From NCBI GenBank assembly GCA_016861105.1, contig BOKS01000005.1:186001-250000 (forward strand): a stretch of DNA of 64,000 nt, given 5' to 3'. Position numbers and translations under genes: made by a program. This stretch comes from Betaproteobacteria bacterium (GTDB lineage Bacteria > Pseudomonadota > Gammaproteobacteria > Burkholderiales > Casimicrobiaceae). The notes beneath the pieces are model-generated. The model was not told the origin of the DNA and searched no databases. It was given only the letters and a program-made list of their open reading frames with translations. Below are positions 40,513-62,388 of this stretch, piece after piece; the first letter of the stretch is position 1; every line of letters begins with the position of its first letter.

Positions 40513-42027
40513 ATGACCACGATCCGCCAGGACGACTTCGTCGCCAGCGTCGCCGACGCGTTCCAGTTCATCAGCTACTACCACCCGGCCGACTACGTCC
40601 GCGCGCTCGCGCAGGCCTACGAGCGCGAGGCCTCGCCGGCGGCGAAGGACGCGATGGCGCAGATCCTCATCAACTCGCGGATGTCCGCCGAGGGGCACCG
40701 GCCGATGTGCCAGGACACCGGCATCGCCATCGCGTTCGTCCGCGTGGGCATGGACGTGCGCTGGGACGCGAAGCTCTCGCTGCAGCAGATGGTCGACGAG
40801 GGCGTGCGCCGCGCCTACACCGACAGGGACAACCCGCTGCGCGCCTCGGTGCTGGCCGACCCCGACGGCACGCGGACCAACACGAAGGACAACACGCCCG
40901 CGGTCGTGCACGTCGAGCTCGTTCCCGGCGACGAGGTCGAGGTCATCGTGGCCGCGAAGGGCGGCGGGTCGGAGAACAAGTCGAAGTTCGCCTGCCTGCT
41001 GCCCAGCGACAGCATCGTCGACTGGGTGCTCTCCGTCGTGCCGACGATGGGCGCGGACTGGTGCCCGCCCGGCATCCTGTCGCTGGGCGTCGGCGGAACG
41101 CCCGAGAAGGCGATGCTGCTCGCGAAGTGGGGCATGATGGACCCGATCGACATGCAGCAGCTGCTCGCCCGCGGCCCGTCGAGCCACGCGGAGGAGTTGC
41201 GCATCGAGCTCTACGAGAAGGTCAACGCGCTGGGCATCGGCGCGCAGGGCCTGGGCGGGCTCACCACGGTGCTCGACGTCAAGGTCGCCGACTGGCCGAC
41301 GCACGCCGCTTCCAAGCCGGTCGCGCTGCTGCCCAACTGCGCAGCGACGCGCCACGCGCACTTCGTGCTCGACGGCTCGGGGCCGGCGCGCCTCGCGCCG
41401 CCTTCGCTCGACGACTGGCCGAAGCTCGCGCTCGACTTCGGCGCGAGCCGCCGCGTCGACCTCGACACGCTGACGCGCGCGGACATCGCCGCGTGGAAGG
41501 CGGGCGACCGCCTGCTGCTCAGCGGCAGGCTGCTGACGGGGCGCGACGCCGCGCACAAGCGCCTCACCGAGATGCTCGCGCGCGGCGAGACGCTCCCGGT
41601 CGACTTCCGCGACCGCTTCATCTACTACGTCGGCCCGGTCGACGCGGTCCGCGACGAGGCGGTGGGGCCCGCCGGGCCCACGACCTCCTCGCGCATGGAC
41701 AGGTTCACCGAGACGATGCTGGCGCAGACGGGCCTGATCGGGATGGTGGGCAAGTCGGAGCGCGGTCCCGCAGCGGTGGAGGCGATCCGCAGGCACGGCG
41801 CCGTCTACTGCATCGCCGTGGGCGGCGCAGCGTACCTCGTGTCGAAGGCGATCAAGCGCTCGAAGGTGCTCGCCTTCGGCGACCTCGGCATGGAGGCGAT
41901 CTACGAGTTCGAGGTGCAGGACATGCCGGTGATCGTCGCCGTCGACGCGCAGGGCGCTTCCGTGCACCGGAGCGGTCCGGCCGAGTGGCGCGCGCGCATC
42001 GGCCGAATTCCCGTCGCCGTCGCGTGA
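40513..42027 (+). CDS. Fumarate hydratase, class I (iron-sulfur)
   Basis: Interconverts fumarate and malate in the TCA cycle using a [4Fe-4S] cluster. 504 residues. Likely cluster ligands are Cys66 (in RPMCQDTG), Cys184 (in DWCPPGILS) and Cys276 (in LLPNCAATRHAH); their spacing of 118 and 92 matches E. coli FumA. Other blocks are GGGSENKSKFACLLPSD, QGLGGLTTVLDVK and SSRMDRFTETMLAQTGLIGMVGK, all typical. Oxygen-sensitive class I enzymes are usual in this group. A CGGAGCA ribosome binding site precedes ATG 40513. Confidence 0.95.
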   Translation: MTTIRQDDFVASVADAFQFISYYHPADYVRALAQAYEREASPAAKDAMAQILINSRMSAEGHRPMCQDTGIAIAFVRVGMDVRWDAKLSLQQMVDEGVRRAYTDRDNPLRASVLADPDGTRTNTKDNTPAVVHVELVPGDEVEVIVAAKGGGSENKSKFACLLPSDSIVDWVLSVVPTMGADWCPPGILSLGVGGTPEKAMLLAKWGMMDPIDMQQLLARGPSSHAEELRIELYEKVNALGIGAQGLGGLTTVLDVKVADWPTHAASKPVALLPNCAATRHAHFVLDGSGPARLAPPSLDDWPKLALDFGASRRVDLDTLTRADIAAWKAGDRLLLSGRLLTGRDAAHKRLTEMLARGETLPVDFRDRFIYYVGPVDAVRDEAVGPAGPTTSSRMDRFTETMLAQTGLIGMVGKSERGPAAVEAIRRHGAVYCIAVGGAAYLVSKAIKRSKVLAFGDLGMEAIYEFEVQDMPVIVAVDAQGASVHRSGPAEWRARIGRIPVAVA

Positions 42028-42280: not shown

Positions 42281-43240
42281 GTGGAGCCTGTGCCCGACGC
42301 TTTCCGGACACGCCGGCGGGGCCTTTCCGCCGTCGCCGGCCGTCCCGGTCCCTGCGCTTCCCGCAGCCGCGCTGCCGCGCTCGCCCTCGCGGCAGCGGTC
42401 GCGCTCCCCGCGGGTGCCCAGTCCGCGCGCCTGCTCGTCGTGCAGTCGGCGGACTCGCCGCGCCTCGTCCGCACGCTGGCCGCGCTGCGCGAGCGCTCGC
42501 CGCTCCCCGTCGACGTGGTTCCGCTGCCGCACGACGCCCACGAGCTGAGCCGCGAGTGGTCGCGCAGCGGCCGCGGCAGCGTGCTCGTCGCGCTCGGCCC
42601 GCGCGCGAGCGACGCCGTCGTCGAGGTCGGGCTCGGCGGGGCGGCCGTCCACTGCCTCGCCGGCGCCGACGCGTTGCGCGCGGGGCTCCCGGCCGTGCCG
42701 TCGGAGGTCCCGGTCGACCAGCAGGCCGCGTGGCTCGGACGGCTGCTGCCGCGCGCGCGCACCGTCGGCCTGCTCTACGACCCGGCGATCAACACGCGCC
42801 GCGCCGAAGCGCACGCCGCCGGGCTCGCGCTCGCCGGCTACCGCACGCTGCAGCAGCCCGTCGCGTCGCCCGCCGACCTGCCGCACGGGCTCGAGCGGCT
42901 CGCGGGCCGGGCCGACGTGCTGCTCGCGCTGCCCGACGGCACCGTCTACACCCACGAGTCCTCGCGCGGCCTGCTGCTCTACAGCTTCCGCAAGCGCATT
43001 CCGCTCGTGGGCCCCGGCGAGCAGTGGGTGAAGCGCGGCGCGCTCTACGCGCTCGACTGGGACTACGCCGACGTCGGCGCGGCGTGCGCCGCGCTCGCCG
43101 CGCGCGAGTCGAACCCGCGTGCGCCCGCCGCGGTGGCGCAGCCGCGCATCCGCGTGTCGGTGAACACGAAGAGCGCGGGCCACTTCGGCGTCGCGTGGCC
43201 CGACGACCTGCTGCGGCTGGTCGACGCGCGCCATGAATGA
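42281..43240 (+). CDS. Orphan ABC-type periplasmic binding protein (ABC_sub_bind-like)
   Basis: About 319 residues from GTG 42281; GTG 42290 is an alternative and neither has a strong ribosome binding site. A signal sequence (AALALAAAVALPAGAQSA) precedes a two-lobe binding-protein fold of the ABC_sub_bind/TrpX type: repeated LVALGPRASDAVV, RARTVGLLYDPAINTRRA and DVLLALPDGTVYT, then KRIPLVGPGEQWVKRGALYALDWDY. No permease or ATPase gene is nearby. The last 8 bases overlap the start of the GGDEF-EAL gene, so the two proteins are made together and this one probably senses a ligand for it. The ligand is unknown. Confidence 0.8.
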   Translation: MEPVPDAFRTRRRGLSAVAGRPGPCASRSRAAALALAAAVALPAGAQSARLLVVQSADSPRLVRTLAALRERSPLPVDVVPLPHDAHELSREWSRSGRGSVLVALGPRASDAVVEVGLGGAAVHCLAGADALRAGLPAVPSEVPVDQQAAWLGRLLPRARTVGLLYDPAINTRRAEAHAAGLALAGYRTLQQPVASPADLPHGLERLAGRADVLLALPDGTVYTHESSRGLLLYSFRKRIPLVGPGEQWVKRGALYALDWDYADVGAACAALAARESNPRAPAAVAQPRIRVSVNTKSAGHFGVAWPDDLLRLVDARHE

Positions 43241-45596
43241 CTCCGCGGCCCCGCAGCCGGGCGTCCCTCCGCTCGACGCGCCGTCGGACGGCAGGCGCGG
43301 CGGCATCCGCCGCCTGCGCAAGCACCTGCTGCCGCTCGCCTCCGAGTCCATGTCGCCGATCGACCTGCCGCCGGTGCGATCGGGCCTGCTGTTCAAGCTC
43401 AACCTCCTGACCGTCGGCCTCATCGTCCTCACCGCGGTCGCGATCTCCTCCTACTACTTCTGGTTGCAGTGGGGAAGCGAGGACCGCGAGCTGCGCCAGC
43501 GCGCGGCCTCGCACGTCGGCATCCTGAGCGAGCTCGCCGAGTTCGCCGTCTACACGTCGGACCGCGCGTCGATCGACCAGCTGCTGCAGGGCCTCTCGAT
43601 CAACCGCGACGTCGCCTACGCGATGGTGCTCGACGCGAAGCTCGCGCCGATCGCCCAGCGCCGCTTCGGCGAGACCATCGGGGAGCGGCCGATCCCGGCG
43701 CCGGCCCCCGACGTCGCGCCGCCCAAGGTCGGCGAGATGCACGAAGTCGAGCAGGCGATCGGCGGCCGGCGCTATCTCGAGCTGTTCGCCGCGATCGGCG
43801 GCACGCCGAACGACGACGCGCGTGCGCTCTCCGCGGCGGCGGCCGAGGCCGGCGGCCGGTCGGCCGCCGGCGGCGCGCCGATCGGCTACCTGCGCCTCGG
43901 CATGTCCTTCGAGCGCCAGCGCGACGAGATGGTCGCCCGCATCCTCGGCACGCTGACCGTCGTGCTGCTGCTCACCGTCGTCGCCGTCATCGCGTCGCTG
44001 CTGCTGACGCGCCGCCTGGTCGCGCCGATGCGGCGCCTGATGCGCGCGGCGCGGGCGGTCGGCGCCGGCCGCCTCGACGTCTACGTCCCCGCGTCGTCGT
44101 CCGACGAGCTGGGCCTGCTGACGCACACGTTCAACCACATGACGCAGCGCCTCTCCGAGTCGCAGGCCGAGGTCGCGAACTACCAGCGCACGCTGGAGGA
44201 CAAGGTCGCGCAGCGCACCCGGGAGCTGGAGGTGGCCACGGCGCACGCCTACAAGCTCGCGCAGCACGACATCCTGACCGGGCTGCCGAACCGCAGCCTG
44301 CTCAACCAGCGGCTGCGCCAGATCTTCGCGCAGGCGCAGCGCAGCGGGCTGCAGGTCGCCTGCCTGTTCCTCGACTTCGACCACTTCAAGCGGATCAACG
44401 ACACGCTCGGCCACGACGCCGGCGACCAGCTGCTGCAGTCGATCGCGCAGCGCCTCACCAACGCGGTGCGCGAGTCCGACACGGTGGCCCGGCTCGGCGG
44501 CGACGAGTTCGTCGTGATCCTCCCCGGCCTCGACCCGGCGCACGCGACCTTCGAGATCATGACCGTGCTGCAGCGCGTGCGCGACTCGTTCCACGCGCCG
44601 TTCCGCCTCGCCGACCAGACCCCGACGCTCACGTGCTCGATCGGCGTCTCGGTCTACCCGCTCGACGCCGTCGACGCCGTCACGCTCATCAAGCAGGCGG
44701 ACACGGCGATGTACGCGGCGAAGGAGGCGGGACGCAACTCCTACCGCTTCTACACGGCGGACATGAACGCGCGCGTGCAGCAGAGGCTCCAGCTGGAGAC
44801 CGACATGCGCCGCGGTCTGATGGACGACGAGTTCTTCCTCGTCTACCAGCCGCAGATCGACCTGCGCAGCGGCCGCGCCTGCGGCGTCGAGGCGCTGCTG
44901 CGCTGGCGCGACCCCACGCGCGGCGTGGTCTCGCCGGCCGAGTTCATCCCGATCGCCGAGGAGTCGGGCATGATCCAGGCGCTCGGCGCCCGCGTGCTGC
45001 GCGACGCCTGCCGCCAGGTCATGCAGTGGCACAAGTCGAGCATGCCGCTGCGGCTCGCGGTCAACCTGTCGGTGCAGCAGCTGCAGCACGAGAGCTGGCT
45101 GTCGGTCGTCGAGGAGGCGCTGGCGTCCACCGGCCTGCCGTCGCACTACCTCGACCTCGAGATCACCGAGAGCGTCATCATCACGCATCCCGAGCGCGCG
45201 GTCGCGACGCTGGTGCGCCTGAAGCAGATGGGCGTGTCGATCACCGTGGACGACTTCGGCACCGGCTACTCGTCGCTTTCCTACCTCGCGCGGCTGCCGA
45301 TCCAGGGCGTGAAGATCGACCAGCGCTTCGTGCGCGGCCTCGAGCAGAACCGCAACGACGAGGCGATCACGCAGGCCATCATCGCGCTCTCGCACTCGCT
45401 GGGACTGCGCGTGATCGCCGAGGGTGTGGAGACCGTCGCGCAGCTCGAGTACCTGAAGCGGCACGGCTGCGAGGAAGCGCAGGGCTTCCTGATCGCGCGC
45501 CCGCTCGAGGAGCCGGAGCTGCGGCAGTGGTTCCACCGCACGGAGGCCGAGCGCGCCGCGGCGCAGCCGCAGCCGGACCTGTGGACGGGGAGTTGA
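43233..45596 (+). CDS. Membrane GGDEF-EAL protein with periplasmic sensor domain
   Basis: 787 residues: a basic cytoplasmic tail, helix 1 (about 52-79), a periplasmic domain (about 80-235), helix 2 (about 237-259), HAMP (about 260-312) and a short coiled coil. The GGDEF domain (about 340-510) has LGGDEF at 421-426 and an I-site RESD at 413-416 exactly five residues before it. The EAL domain (about 525-770) has EALLRW at 553-558, NLSVQQ, ITES, DDFGTGYSS and AEGVET. Both c-di-GMP synthesis and hydrolysis motifs look intact, so output direction cannot be told from sequence. It overlaps the upstream periplasmic binding-protein gene by 8 bases, suggesting that protein docks on the periplasmic domain. 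Confidence 0.93.
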   Translation: MNDSAAPQPGVPPLDAPSDGRRGGIRRLRKHLLPLASESMSPIDLPPVRSGLLFKLNLLTVGLIVLTAVAISSYYFWLQWGSEDRELRQRAASHVGILSELAEFAVYTSDRASIDQLLQGLSINRDVAYAMVLDAKLAPIAQRRFGETIGERPIPAPAPDVAPPKVGEMHEVEQAIGGRRYLELFAAIGGTPNDDARALSAAAAEAGGRSAAGGAPIGYLRLGMSFERQRDEMVARILGTLTVVLLLTVVAVIASLLLTRRLVAPMRRLMRAARAVGAGRLDVYVPASSSDELGLLTHTFNHMTQRLSESQAEVANYQRTLEDKVAQRTRELEVATAHAYKLAQHDILTGLPNRSLLNQRLRQIFAQAQRSGLQVACLFLDFDHFKRINDTLGHDAGDQLLQSIAQRLTNAVRESDTVARLGGDEFVVILPGLDPAHATFEIMTVLQRVRDSFHAPFRLADQTPTLTCSIGVSVYPLDAVDAVTLIKQADTAMYAAKEAGRNSYRFYTADMNARVQQRLQLETDMRRGLMDDEFFLVYQPQIDLRSGRACGVEALLRWRDPTRGVVSPAEFIPIAEESGMIQALGARVLRDACRQVMQWHKSSMPLRLAVNLSVQQLQHESWLSVVEEALASTGLPSHYLDLEITESVIITHPERAVATLVRLKQMGVSITVDDFGTGYSSLSYLARLPIQGVKIDQRFVRGLEQNRNDEAITQAIIALSHSLGLRVIAEGVETVAQLEYLKRHGCEEAQGFLIARPLEEPELRQWFHRTEAERAAAQPQPDLWTGS

Positions 45597-46275: not shown

Positions 46276-47418
46276 TCACTCCGGCAGCAGGCGGAACCGG
46301 CCGTCCTTCACGGTGACGAGCACGCGCGCGCGCTCGTCCATGCCGTTGTGGTTGGACGGGCTCATGTTGAACACGCCCTGGCAGCCGACGATCTCGCGCT
46401 CCCGCTCGATGGCGTCGCGCAGCGCCGTGCGGAAGGCCTCGGTGCCCGGCTTCGCCAGCTTCGCCGCCGCGGGGATCGCGCGCTCGAGGATGATCCACGC
46501 GTCCCAAGTGTTCGCGCCGAACGTCGCCGGCTTCTGCCCGAAGCGCGCCTCGTAGGCCGCGATGTAGCGCTTCGCGACCTGCTTGACCGGGTTGGCGTCG
46601 GCGATCTCGTCGATCACGAGCATCGGGCCGGCGGCGAGCACCGTGCCCTCGACCTTCGCGCCGCCGAGACGGATGAAGTCGTCGGTGGCCACCCCGTGCG
46701 TCTGGTAGATCGCGCCCTTGTACCCCTGGTCGCGCAGCGTGATCTGCGGCAGCACGCCGGGCCCGCCGACGCCCGCGACGAGCACCGCGTCGGGCTTCGC
46801 GGCGATCAGCTTCAGCGACTGCCCGGTCACGCTCTGGTCGGTGCGGTTGTAGCGCTCGACCGCCGCGAGCTTCAGCCCCGCCTTCTCGGCCAGCGCGCCG
46901 AACACGCGGAGCCAGTTCTCGCCGTAGGGATCGTTGAACCCGACGAAGCCGACGCTCCGCACGCCGCTTCGCGTCATGTGCTTGATCAGCGCGGCCGCGA
47001 TCAGGTCGTCGTTCTGCGTGGTCTTGTAGACCCAGCGCCGCTTCGCGTCGAGCGGCTCGACGACCGACGAGGTCCCCACGGTCGCCATCAGCGGCACCTT
47101 CTGCTCGGCGACGAGGTCGAGGATCGCCAGCGCGATCGGCGTCGTCGACGGCCCGATCAGCGCGTCGATGTTGTGCTCCTGCAGCAGCTTCTTCGCGTTC
47201 TGCACGCCGCGTGTGGTGTCGCCGCCGTCGTCGAGCTGGACGTACTCGATCGCGAGCCCGCCCAGGCTGCGCGGCAGCAGGTCGCCGGTGTTCTTCTGCG
47301 GGATGCCGATCGCCGACGTGGGGCCGGTGGCGGAGACCATCAGGCCGATGCGGACCTGGGCGGCGGCGGGGAGCGCCGCGAGCGCGAGCGCGGCGGCGAG
47401 GACGGCGATGCGGACCAT
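46276..47418 (-). CDS. Branched-chain amino acid-type ABC substrate-binding protein (LivK-like)
   Basis: 380 residues. A signal peptide (cleavage near LPAAAQV) is followed by the Peripla_BP_6 fold: IGLMVSATGPTSAIGIPQKN at the N-terminus, DDGGDTTRGVQNAKKLL, ALIGPSTTPIALA and VGFNDPYGENW. Related proteins bind branched-chain amino acids, amides or aromatic acids. No permease or ATPase gene adjoins, so it is either an orphan or its transporter lies elsewhere. It is divergent from a methyltransferase gene with 83 bases between the start codons. Confidence 0.9.
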   Translation of the reverse strand: MVRIAVLAAALALAALPAAAQVRIGLMVSATGPTSAIGIPQKNTGDLLPRSLGGLAIEYVQLDDGGDTTRGVQNAKKLLQEHNIDALIGPSTTPIALAILDLVAEQKVPLMATVGTSSVVEPLDAKRRWVYKTTQNDDLIAAALIKHMTRSGVRSVGFVGFNDPYGENWLRVFGALAEKAGLKLAAVERYNRTDQSVTGQSLKLIAAKPDAVLVAGVGGPGVLPQITLRDQGYKGAIYQTHGVATDDFIRLGGAKVEGTVLAAGPMLVIDEIADANPVKQVAKRYIAAYEARFGQKPATFGANTWDAWIILERAIPAAAKLAKPGTEAFRTALRDAIEREREIVGCQGVFNMSPSNHNGMDERARVLVTVKDGRFRLLPE

Positions 47419-59197: not shown

Positions 59198-61042
59198 TCA
59201 CCCCTCTTCCCCCCGCGCGGCGAGGGCCGCGCGCGTGCGCAGCGCCTCGTCCTGCTGCAGGCGCCACATCCGCGCGTAGGTCCCCCCGGCGGCGAGCAGC
59301 GCGAGGTGCGTCCCGCGCTCGACGATGCGGCCGTGCTCGAGCACGAGGATCTCGTCGGCGTCGACGATCGTCGACAACCGGTGCGCGATGGTGAGCGTCG
59401 TGTGCTCGCGCGCGATGGCGCGCAGCTCCGCCTGGATCGCCTTCTCGGACCGCGAGTCGAGCGCCGACGTCGCCTCGTCGAAGATCAGGATCGTCGGCCG
59501 CTTGAGGATGGCGCGCGCGATCGCCACGCGCTGCTTCTCGCCGCCCGAGAGCTTGAGGCCGCGCTCGCCGACGGGCGTCGCGTAGCCCTCCGGCAGGCGG
59601 CTCACGAAGTCGTGGATCTGCGCGAGCCTGGCGGCCGCGACGATCTCGTCGTGCGTCGCGCCGGGCCGGCCGTAGGCGATGTTGTACTCGATCGTGTCGT
59701 TGAACAGCACCGTGTCCTGCGGCACGATGCCGATCGCCGCGCGCACGCTCGCCTGCGTCACCTCGCGCACGTCCTGTCCGTCGATGGTGATGCGCCCGCC
59801 GGTGGCGTCGTAGAAGCGGTACAGCAGCCGCGCGAGCGTCGACTTGCCCGACCCCGACGGCCCGACGACCGCCACCGTGCGCCCCGCGGGGATCGCGAAC
59901 GAGACGTCGCGCAGGATGCGCCGGTTCGCCTCGTAGGCGAAGTCGACGCGCTCGAAGCGGACCTCCCCGCCGGCGAGCGCGAGCGGCGGCGCTCCCGGCC
60001 GGTCGCGGATCTCCGCGTGCTCCTCGAGCAGGCCGAACAGCCTCTCCATGTCGGCCAGCGCCTGCTTGATCTCGCGGTAGAGCACGCCGAGGAAGTTGAG
60101 CGGGATGTAGAGCTGGATCATGAACGCGTTGACCAGCACGAGGTCGCCGATGGTCATCGTGCCGTCGACGACGCCGACGGTGGCGCGCCACATGATCAGC
60201 GTGACGGCGATCGCGATGATCGCGCTCTGCCCGATGTTCAGCGCGGACAGCGAGGTCTGGCTGCGCACGGCGGCCTTCTCCCAGCGCTGCAGGCTCTCGT
60301 CGTAGCGCTGCGCCTCCCAGGCCTCGTTGCCGAAGTACTTGACGGTCTCGTAGTTGAGCAGGCTGTCGATGGCGCGCGTGTTCGCCCGGCTGTCCAGCTC
60401 GTTCATCGTGCGCCGGAACTGGGTGCGCCACTCGGTGACCGCGACGGTGAACGCGATGTAGCAGGCGAGCGCCGTCACGGCGATGGCCACGAACGTCCAG
60501 TCGTAGCGGGCGACGAGGATCCCGCAGACGAGCGCGATCTCGACGAGCGTCGGCAGGATCGAGAACAGCGCGTACTGGATCAGCGTGGAGATGCCGCGCT
60601 GTCCCCTCTCGACGTCGCGCGTGAGCCCGCCGGTCTGGCGCGCGAGGTGGAAGCGCAGGCTGAGGCCGTGCAGGTGCCGGAACACCTGCAGCGCGATCTT
60701 ACGCACGGCGCGCTGCGTGACCTTGGCGAAGAGGAACTCGCGCAGCTCGGTGAACGCCGTCGTGGACAGGCGCAGCAGGCCGTAGCCGGCGAGCAGCGCG
60801 AGCGGCACTGCGAGCAGCGCGACGTCGCGGTCGAGGCCGTCGACGATCTCCTTCATCACGAGCGGCACGCCCACGTTCGCGAGCTTGGCCGCGACGAGGC
60901 AGGCCAGCGCGGCCGTCACCCGGGCCTTGTACTCCCACAGGTACGGCAGGATCTGCCGGGCGGTCGCCCAGTCGCCGCGGGACGTGCGGGGCACGCCCTT
61001 GTCGGCGGGCAGGGGAAGCGTGGAGGAGCGGGAGCCGCGCAT
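59198..61042 (-). CDS. ABC exporter of the Atm1/HMT1 type
   Basis: A 614-residue half-transporter. The membrane domain (about 35-340) has six helices and the segment NYETVKYFGNE at 230-240, a hallmark of mitochondrial Atm1 and bacterial relatives that export glutathione-linked sulfur or metal compounds. The nucleotide-binding domain has Walker A GPSGSGKST at 394-402, signature LSGGEKQRVAIARAIL and Walker B ILIFDEATSALD. It works as a homodimer in the inner membrane. ATG 61042 is 33 bases after a TACAAT -10 box. Substrate (glutathione conjugates, metals or iron-sulfur precursors) is by family only. Confidence 0.92.
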   Translation of the reverse strand: MRGSRSSTLPLPADKGVPRTSRGDWATARQILPYLWEYKARVTAALACLVAAKLANVGVPLVMKEIVDGLDRDVALLAVPLALLAGYGLLRLSTTAFTELREFLFAKVTQRAVRKIALQVFRHLHGLSLRFHLARQTGGLTRDVERGQRGISTLIQYALFSILPTLVEIALVCGILVARYDWTFVAIAVTALACYIAFTVAVTEWRTQFRRTMNELDSRANTRAIDSLLNYETVKYFGNEAWEAQRYDESLQRWEKAAVRSQTSLSALNIGQSAIIAIAVTLIMWRATVGVVDGTMTIGDLVLVNAFMIQLYIPLNFLGVLYREIKQALADMERLFGLLEEHAEIRDRPGAPPLALAGGEVRFERVDFAYEANRRILRDVSFAIPAGRTVAVVGPSGSGKSTLARLLYRFYDATGGRITIDGQDVREVTQASVRAAIGIVPQDTVLFNDTIEYNIAYGRPGATHDEIVAAARLAQIHDFVSRLPEGYATPVGERGLKLSGGEKQRVAIARAILKRPTILIFDEATSALDSRSEKAIQAELRAIAREHTTLTIAHRLSTIVDADEILVLEHGRIVERGTHLALLAAGGTYARMWRLQQDEALRTRAALAARGEEG

Positions 61043-61074
61043 GCGCGAGGGAAGCGGCAGGCGCCGCGCCCGCC

Positions 61075-61080
61075 ATTGTA
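61075..61080 (-). promoter_or_regulatory. -10 box of the ABC exporter
   Basis: Minus-strand TACAAT (five of six) lies 32 bases before ATG 61042. No good -35 box. Confidence 0.4.
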
Positions 61081-61155
61081 CGGCGCACCCCGCGGGCGCG
61101 AGGGACGGGGGTCGCCGCGGCCGCCGGCGCGGGACGGCGCCCCCGCGCCGCGGAC

Positions 61156-62388
61156 CTACTTGCCCCCGCGCGTGATGCGCGAGATCGTCTCGCCGAAGCC
61201 GTGCCGGCCGCGCCGCCGGCCGCGCCACCACTCGTTGCCGCCGTAGCCGAGGAAGCCCATCGCGACGCGCACGAAACCGTACGCGGCCCACGACAGGGCG
61301 CGGGCGAACACCGGACGCGCCGCCCAGTGCTGCGGACCGACGCGCCGCGCGCCGGTCTGCACCATCTGCAGCAGCTCGAAGCGCAGCTGCGCGGCGAACC
61401 CCGCGTCGCGCACGAACAGGTTGGCCTCGCGCGACATGAGGAGCGAATAGGGGTCGATGTTCGACGAGCCGACGGTCGCCCAGCGCTCGTCGACGACCGC
61501 CACCTTCGCGTGCAGGAACGAGCGGTGGTACTCCTCGATCGCCACGCCCCCGGCGAGCAGCTGCCCGTAGAGCGCCCGCGACGCGTAGTGCAGCAGGCGG
61601 TACTCGACGCGGTGCTGGAGCAGCAGCGTCACCTGCACGCCGCGCGCCGCGGCGTCGATCAGCGCGCGGCGGAAGCGGACGCCCGGGAAGAAGTACGCGT
61701 TGGCGATCAGGATCTCGCGCCGCGCGGTGCGCACCGCGGCGAGGTACGCGCGCTCGATGTCGCGCCGGTGCGAGAGGTTGTCGCGGATGGTGAACTTCGC
61801 GGTCTGTCCGCCCACTCGCGGCACCGGCCTCGGCTCGGGGAACAGCGGCACCTCGCGCGTGCGGAACTGGACGAGCTCGCACAGCGCCCACACGCGCGCC
61901 ATCGTCTGCACGACGCCCGCCACCACCGGGCCCTCGACGCGCACGGCGTAGTCGACGCGCGGCGGGCGCTGGCCGGGCGTGTTCATGTCGTCGATCAGGT
62001 TGATGCCGCCGACGAACGCCACGCGGCCGTCGGCGTGGGCCAGCTTCCGGTGCAGCCGCCGCAGCCGGTGCGAGCGGAACTGCCACGGCGCGACCTCCGG
62101 CCGGTACTTGAGCAGGCGCACGCCGCCGTCCGCGAGCATCCGCTCGAGCGCCGGCGTCAGGTAGTGCTTCGCCCCCCAGCCGTCGACGAGGACGCGCACC
62201 GTGACACCGCGCTGCGCCGCCGCGACCAGCGCTTCGCCGATCGCGCGTCCGGACGGGTCGTCGGCGAAGATGTAGGTCTCGATCCACACCTCCGCGCGCG
62301 CGGCGTTCACGGCTTCGGCGAGGGCAGCGAAGTACTCGGTGCCGCTGCGCAGCAGGCGCACGGCGTTGCCCGGCGTGAAGCGGTTCAC
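61156..62388 (-). CDS. Phospholipase D-family cardiolipin synthase (ClsB-like)
   Basis: 410 residues from GTG 62388. Two HKD motifs, HRKLAHAD at 113-120 followed by VAFVGGIN, and HAKVAVVD at 293-300 followed by WATVGSSN, define a PLD-superfamily enzyme. There is no N-terminal membrane pair, so it fits the ClsB/YbhO group that joins phosphatidyl groups to make cardiolipin. The start is placed at GTG because RLLRSGTEYFAAL begins the conserved domain and upstream sequence belongs to the structured element. The C-terminal tail is Arg/Gly-rich. Confidence 0.85.
   Translation of the reverse strand: MNRFTPGNAVRLLRSGTEYFAALAEAVNAARAEVWIETYIFADDPSGRAIGEALVAAAQRGVTVRVLVDGWGAKHYLTPALERMLADGGVRLLKYRPEVAPWQFRSHRLRRLHRKLAHADGRVAFVGGINLIDDMNTPGQRPPRVDYAVRVEGPVVAGVVQTMARVWALCELVQFRTREVPLFPEPRPVPRVGGQTAKFTIRDNLSHRRDIERAYLAAVRTARREILIANAYFFPGVRFRRALIDAAARGVQVTLLLQHRVEYRLLHYASRALYGQLLAGGVAIEEYHRSFLHAKVAVVDERWATVGSSNIDPYSLLMSREANLFVRDAGFAAQLRFELLQMVQTGARRVGPQHWAARPVFARALSWAAYGFVRVAMGFLGYGGNEWWRGRRRGRHGFGETISRITRGGK

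Follow-up and report, generated by a model that had tools for sequence, protein, structure and literature searches.

The window considered here, a stretch of 64,000 nucleotides of contig BOKS01000005.1 from a betaproteobacterium of the Casimicrobiaceae, contains a gene for a predicted periplasmic binding protein of the ABC_sub_bind family (PF04392) that runs into the start of a gene for a membrane protein with HAMP, GGDEF and EAL domains. The locus raises the question whether the two products act together as a ligand-gated system for cyclic di-guanosine monophosphate (c-di-GMP). To our knowledge, few binding-protein-gated c-di-GMP enzymes are known, namely NspS/MbaA and ScrB/ScrC, and for most enzymes of this kind no signal is known. 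We regard it as likely that the two genes constitute one sensory unit, a reduced, TonB-less member of a modular family of binding-protein-gated sensors. Comparison of the sequences among relatives demonstrated the pairing, a clade of binding proteins apart from those of transporters, swaps of the output domains, co-variation of the two proteins and decay of a sensor motif where the binding protein is missing, and the soluble periplasmic protein probably docks onto the membrane c-di-GMP enzyme. The genes and the parts of their products are as follows:

42281 to 43240, plus strand: gene for the TrpX-like binding protein (GTG start, stop codon 43238-43240, 319 amino acids)
42704 to 43216, plus strand: part of the binding protein covered by PF04392, its C-terminal half (profile match; better predicted half of the model)
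42989 to 42991, plus strand: codon of Arg237, the proposed docking residue (conservation and charge co-variation with sensor residue 103)
43233 to 45596, plus strand: gene for the membrane sensor-enzyme, HAMP-GGDEF-EAL (ATG start, 787 amino acids, predicted bifunctional c-di-GMP enzyme)
43440 to 43925, plus strand: putative periplasmic Cache-like domain, residues about 70 to 231, between two membrane helices (model and fold matches)
43539 to 43556, plus strand: EFAVYT, residues 103 to 108, a proposed docking motif located where the first long helix ends (motif distribution)
44001 to 44156, plus strand: HAMP domain (full profile match)
44259 to 44738, plus strand: GGDEF domain with RESD I-site (full profile match, motif check)
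44802 to 45503, plus strand: EAL domain (full profile match, motif check)

By the reading of the open reading frames (ORFs) the two genes share the 8 bases 43233-43240. This overlap and the key motifs of the enzyme, with RESD five residues ahead of GGDEF, had been described in the original prediction, and they were confirmed by the ORF coordinates and by a motif check. Intact are also EAL, VNLS, EITES, DDFGTG, VKID, AEGVE and AQGF, which we take to be, together with RESD and GGDEF, the motifs that count as important in such enzymes. The periplasmic part of the enzyme matched no Pfam family at E 0.01, and sCache_4 (PF09984), which exceeds its cut-off in the related sensors L031, L025 and L107, did not match the enzyme of the window. 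The model of the sensor domain (mean predicted local distance difference test, pLDDT, of 69) shows a long first helix up to residue 107, a second helix and a sheet, and its Foldseek matches include the sensor domains of CitA and WalK. Judged from the order of the secondary-structure elements, residues 103-108 would lie at the membrane-distal end. A CHASE4 structure among the fold matches prompted a comparison with IsmP/ImcA, which was rejected as that cyclase is a six-helix protein. In the family of the window, in L212-L229 and in relatives, the periplasmic part diverges about 4.5-5 times as much as the GGDEF-EAL part.

For the binding protein, PF04392 was the only family matched at E values up to 0.01, so that the polyamine-binding (PotD) type was not found; the score is 39.6 bits compared with a cut-off of 25.9, and the match covers the C-terminal half only. 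An N-terminal signal peptide was judged by eye. Profile matches to solved structures were obtained with 3lkv (E 2.6e-24) and 3lft (E 3.2e-17), and these two structures are also the closest folds in the Protein Data Bank to the model of the binding protein, which was built from five sequences and is good in the C-lobe and of low confidence in the N-lobe. With the TrpX model NF041285 the protein stays far under the cut-off (31.1 vs 390 bits). That it binds a small molecule may be presumed from its family, a solved member of which, 3lft, holds tryptophan. Arg237 was found in all 14 binding proteins of the window clade and in 95% of 65 other sensor-linked ones, and it is not the consensus among nine permease-linked PF04392 proteins.

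The original prediction had proposed a search for conserved adjacency; this was carried out, and the pairing proved to be kept in the family, in the order and in other groups. Among 64 family genomes searched, a strong homologue of the binding protein, with an E value of at most 6.7e-45, occurs in 11 including the source genome, and four more genomes gave weak matches only. In ten of the 11 family loci, that of the window included, the orthologous GGDEF(-EAL) gene follows at a distance between -46 and +136 bases, the contig of L034 being cut off past GGDEF. In the remaining genome, G048, the contig breaks off after the binding protein in 125-base direct repeats (L029:9487-9779); these repeats may explain why the copy of the enzyme is found on a different small contig (L230). 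Outside the family, two Methylomonas records carry the same pair, and in an Ectothiorhodospiraceae record the binding protein precedes a hybrid kinase whose sensor part is related.

A profile built from 14 binding proteins (A1) matched at least 144 of 399 order genomes and at least 66 of 398 phylum genomes at E 1e-15, not all of these matches being sensor-linked. From 74 genomes 80 places were fetched, 70 from the order and ten from the phylum; they were taken among the matches listed and are mostly high-scoring, and the counts that follow are no base rate for all profile matches. A sensor gene stands directly after the binding protein in 77 of the 80 places, with gaps from -37 to +26 bases (-4 in 55 of the 76 counted), and in one (L175) about 370 bases downstream. 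The opposite outcome envisaged in the original prediction, a binding protein mostly beside ABC permeases and a pairing that is not conserved, is not what the loci display, as a permease and an ABC ATPase follow in only two of the 80 places (L167 and L172). When the flanks were inspected for the 56 loci L051-L106, nine lower-scoring places outside the 80 turned out to have the gene followed by a multi-helix permease (L092, L093, L096, L098-L102 and L105). In a tree of 99 binding proteins nine permease-linked ones form one clade with support 100, opposite to the 90 sensor-linked ones; the tree was made by a quick method with several long branches flagged, and L096 and L101 were left out.

The sensors that follow the binding protein differ in their outputs. 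Domain scans of 70 partners identified GGDEF in 49, EAL in 35, HisKA in 21, HAMP in 64 and sCache_4, at E 1e-5, in 61; the alignments of partners (A4 and A5) exclude L167 and L172. Among 23 other partners, which include the window family (set A5), GGDEF was found in 12, HisKA in nine and SpoIIE in one, the SpoIIE phosphatase being a further output type of the same input module. On the tree of binding proteins the kinase label has to change 11 times, and strongly supported branches force three or more of these changes; for example, the GGDEF-linked L120 and L129 group with the kinase-linked L110, L111 and L115. Because the pattern-based EAL labels undercount compared with Pfam, the tree is read only for swaps between GGDEF and kinase.

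Upstream of the binding protein, 79 proteins were scanned: the 80 places supplied 75 ORFs with a length of 200 residues or more, five places having no such ORF, and the other four proteins came from L026, L027, L029 and L032. The barrel of a TonB receptor is present in 56 of the 79, and in ten of them, apparently including those at L113, L116, L119, L131, L135 and L159, an RNase_T (DnaQ-like) exonuclease stands in place of the receptor. Judged from the partner and upstream scans, the usual form is a set of three genes for TonB receptor, binding protein and sensor, and the output of the sensor is exchangeable, being GGDEF with or without EAL or a histidine kinase. Both the usual upstream TonB receptor and the histidine kinase as a possible output had been overlooked in the original prediction. 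Within the family, fumarase, TonB receptor and binding protein stand in a row in G048 (L029), and TonB receptor, binding protein and enzyme in G050 (L032); the receptors of these two genomes and of the two Methylomonas records are 42% identical to the receptor of L107. At the locus of the window no TonB gene or remnant was found, and the source genome, in an assembly that is 85% complete, yielded only distant TonB receptors (best E 2.3e-17). The TonB receptor of L123 weakly resembles TOL_0244 (192 vs 645 bits), which was proposed for alkane uptake; no such gene is present in the window.

Direct contact of the two proteins is suggested by three results of comparison. Firstly, in 61 GGDEF-type pairs the distances among binding proteins correlate with those among sensor domains with r 0.89 and with those among GGDEF domains with r 0.62, the partial correlations being 0.82 for binding protein and sensor given GGDEF and 0.08 for binding protein and GGDEF given the sensor; none of 2000 shuffles reached the sensor correlation. 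Secondly, when 11 family enzymes with a binding protein were compared with 18 enzymes without it, the columns losing most were those of Tyr107, Glu103, Glu227 and Thr108, and the top difference in frequency was reached by none of 2000 label shuffles, which ignore relatedness. Of 14 enzymes with a binding protein (11 from the family and three from outside), 13 have the EFxxYT-type motif composed of E103, [YF]107 and [TS]108; among the 18 without one, it occurs once and is absent from the other 17. A Pagel test of the motif against the presence of the binding protein gave p 0.0003. Thirdly, the charges of sensor residue 103 and binding-protein residue 237 are complementary in 83 of 90 pairs and clash in two. 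In five rows, which belong to two separate clades (L108 and L109; L180-L182), residue 103 is basic and the partner is acidic in all five, and none of 20000 shuffles yielded these five reversed rows. Of 52,992 column pairs examined, 103/237 comes out at the top once three or more rows per orientation are required.

Several points weigh on the other side. The enzyme, searched for with its periplasmic part as query, was found in 29 of the 64 family genomes and has no preceding binding protein in 18 of these 29, and all nine enzyme motif patterns are kept in 15 of the 18 (L217 lost two, L229 lost one, and the frame of L228 stops before EAL). The N-lobe of the binding-protein model is weak, with a mean pLDDT of 63 for the whole model, and the high-score selection of the places counts a little. 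When only the family is considered (n=10), the partial correlations come closer to each other, at 0.72 and 0.50. The EFxxYT motif was picked after looking at the data, some of the rates fitted in the Pagel test took extreme values, and an entropy shuffle over the docking columns, which ignores relatedness, showed no significance (287 of 1000 shuffles reached as high a value). About two of three independent tree pairs agreed with the expectation and none contradicted it, numbers too small for significance. A stricter charge filter, with a limit of one clash, let no column pair through, not even 103/237, and this counts a little as well. In Pseudomonas aeruginosa, moreover, the adjacency of genes for solute-binding proteins (SBPs) and the kinases AgtS and AruS did not mean activation (PMC11113362).

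A replication was mixed. The profile A8 matched 20 of 78 and 117 of 369 genomes, not all matches being sensor-linked, and 45 loci gave 42 usable pairs, of which 12 are complementary, three clash (L247-L249) and 27 are not both charged. The complementary pairs comprise seven Glu-Arg pairs, three Arg-Glu pairs of the same class as L180-L182 and two Arg-Asp pairs of another subfamily (L261 and L273). By this outcome the predicted 103/237 contact has good support in the branch to which the window belongs, but it is not universal. In the subfamily L243-L249 (the class of G467) the charge pair is missing, with Gly, Ser, Gln or Arg facing His, Lys or Arg, and docking there should therefore differ. 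A gammaproteobacterial subfamily of 18 loci between L257 and L283 has an SxLxLL-type sensor motif and an acidic residue 237 of the binding protein in 12 of 18 pairs, and most of its partners show kinase motifs.

A tblastn search with 14 binding proteins found none in the fetched regions of the 18 genomes with the enzyme alone, and directly upstream of the enzyme stands the same fumarase in 15, a UPF0114 protein in one and neither in two. As their motifs are largely intact, the enzyme can therefore serve without the binding protein. From this it could be argued that the enzyme senses by its own Cache-like domain and that the binding protein is a dispensable accessory, for buffering or delivery of the ligand, that is being lost, and the ratio of sensor to output divergence is indeed alike with and without the binding protein (4.98 and 4.80). 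However, direct contact is indicated by the decay of EFxxYT in enzymes lacking the binding protein and by the co-variation in pairs that have it, and we consider this explanation unlikely. The claim of the original prediction that the pair is an NspS/MbaA-like system made from another binding-protein family stands as far as adjacency, the separate clade and co-variation with the sensor are concerned, and is qualified by the 18 of 29 genomes that have the enzyme alone.

A working enzyme, as in the 18 genomes, would also be left behind if an inhibitor were lost. The binding protein could act in the manner of YfiR, without need of a small ligand, and a state of the envelope would release the enzyme. 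CHASE8 reached E 0.018 with the enzyme of the window at a loose cut-off, under the threshold, several window-type sensors show sub-threshold CHASE8 matches as well, and the DgcN/YfiN model matches partially (205 bits vs a cut-off of 325). The usual partner of this type is a DUF4154 protein; in contrast, the partner here belongs to PF04392, a ligand-binding family, and the usual upstream TonB receptor suggests uptake of a molecule, so that a YfiR-like role is judged clearly improbable. A role of the binding protein in a distant ABC transporter, with its position being incidental, is hardly credible, as its homology to TrpX is far under the model cut-off, and the direct adjacencies with swapped outputs as well as the clade apart from permease-linked proteins contradict it.

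Upstream of the pair a profile scan identified a UPF0114 protein and the class I fumarase, and on the opposite strand downstream a MobA-like protein and an unrelated binding protein:

40513 to 42027, plus strand: class I fumarase (upstream neighbour and locus marker in relatives, no part in the mechanism)
46276 to 47418, minus strand: Peripla_BP_6 binding protein without adjoining transporter genes (profile scan)
59198 to 62287, minus strand: exporter-type ABC protein, MsbA-like (best NCBIfam matches MsbA-related, under cut-off)

ORFs resembling the Peripla_BP_6 gene stand near the pairs of L031 and L032, too. Within about 13 kb to the right of the pair no ABC permease or ATPase was found, and a motif scan of the left side gave the same result; the sole ABC ATPase found in the window is the MsbA-like exporter about 14 kb to the right. 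The absence of transporter genes, which the original prediction had stated, holds as an observation and is weak as evidence, because around the five other PF04392 genes of the source genome, too, neither an ABC ATPase nor a TrpX-type permease lies within about 6 kb.

The reading preferred here, a binding protein that gates the enzyme by docking, can be put as a sequence of steps. The PF04392 protein would be exported to the periplasm and bind a candidate small molecule. With its C-terminal lobe near Arg237 it would dock onto the end of the first helix of the Cache-like domain, at Glu103 of EFxxYT, and the signal would be relayed via the membrane helices and HAMP. Ligand-dependent docking could then shift the balance of GGDEF and EAL activities as in NspS/MbaA and ScrB/ScrC. 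The pair may be seen as the two-gene remnant of a widespread cassette of TonB-dependent outer-membrane receptor, binding protein and sensor with interchangeable output. On the tree of the output domains the presence of the binding protein requires five changes, at least three of them forced. We infer that the TonB gene was lost first and the binding protein afterwards, since the three-gene form occurs outside the family and twice within it; some of the assemblies are incomplete. With confidence only slightly better than even, we hold that the window represents one stage of a large cassette of the Pseudomonadota, in which a molecule imported by a TonB receptor is taken up by a dedicated PF04392 protein that docks through a co-evolving salt bridge onto the tip of a Cache-like domain, one input module driving c-di-GMP enzymes or kinases. 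In the family of the window this cassette would be undergoing stepwise reduction, by loss first of the TonB receptor, then of the binding protein and finally of the docking motif. If this is true, the relatives provide naturally occurring gated and free-running versions of a single enzyme as a series, including variants that kept the enzyme after losing the binding protein. The cassette is frequent, its candidate contact is open to a charge-swap test, and the TonB receptor of relatives may betray the ligand.

NspS is a polyamine-binding protein of another family. NspS/MbaA of Vibrio cholerae, with homologues in Sinorhizobium meliloti, resembles the window in that a binding protein is encoded beside a membrane GGDEF-EAL enzyme, and differs in that the window has a PF04392 protein whose relatives usually have a TonB partner and swappable outputs. 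The ligand state of the periplasmic binding protein was reported there to set cyclase or phosphodiesterase activity (PMC8967002). Similarly, in Vibrio parahaemolyticus the periplasmic binding protein ScrB carries a signal to the GGDEF-EAL protein ScrC (PMC11315295). The ScrABC operon includes the signal synthase ScrA, whereas the pair of the window has no synthase, the fumarase standing upstream and the MobA-like protein downstream. TrpX-type ABC binding proteins (3lft, 3lkv and 6hni) belong to the same family and are the best structural matches, yet in relatives they stand beside permease and ATPase in a separate clade and have no Arg237 consensus, unlike the protein of the window. The YfiR/YfiN system differs by its partner protein and by the CHASE8 score under the cut-off. 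A likeness to BarA/GacS exists in sCache_4, presumably the sensor domain of these kinases, which 61 of 70 partners in relatives carry and which does not match the domain of the window; the kinase partner L123 aligns in full length with the BarA model, under the cut-off (237 vs 890 bits). Unlike BarA/GacS, the sensors described here are encoded together with a binding protein and often have a GGDEF/EAL output. A survey of SBPs that had PF04392 among its profiles reported that 13 of the 22 SBP families found have a known action on receptors and that more are expected (PMC9602780). In the open-access papers searched, judged mostly by titles and the beginnings of abstracts, no description of a cassette of PF04392/ABC_sub_bind and GGDEF was found; the related work that came up concerned NspS, ScrB and SBPs with kinases. 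The principle of a binding protein acting on such an enzyme is already known; the present case departs from it in the family to which the binding protein belongs, in the TonB partner of relatives, in outputs that can be swapped and in the presumed loss by steps.

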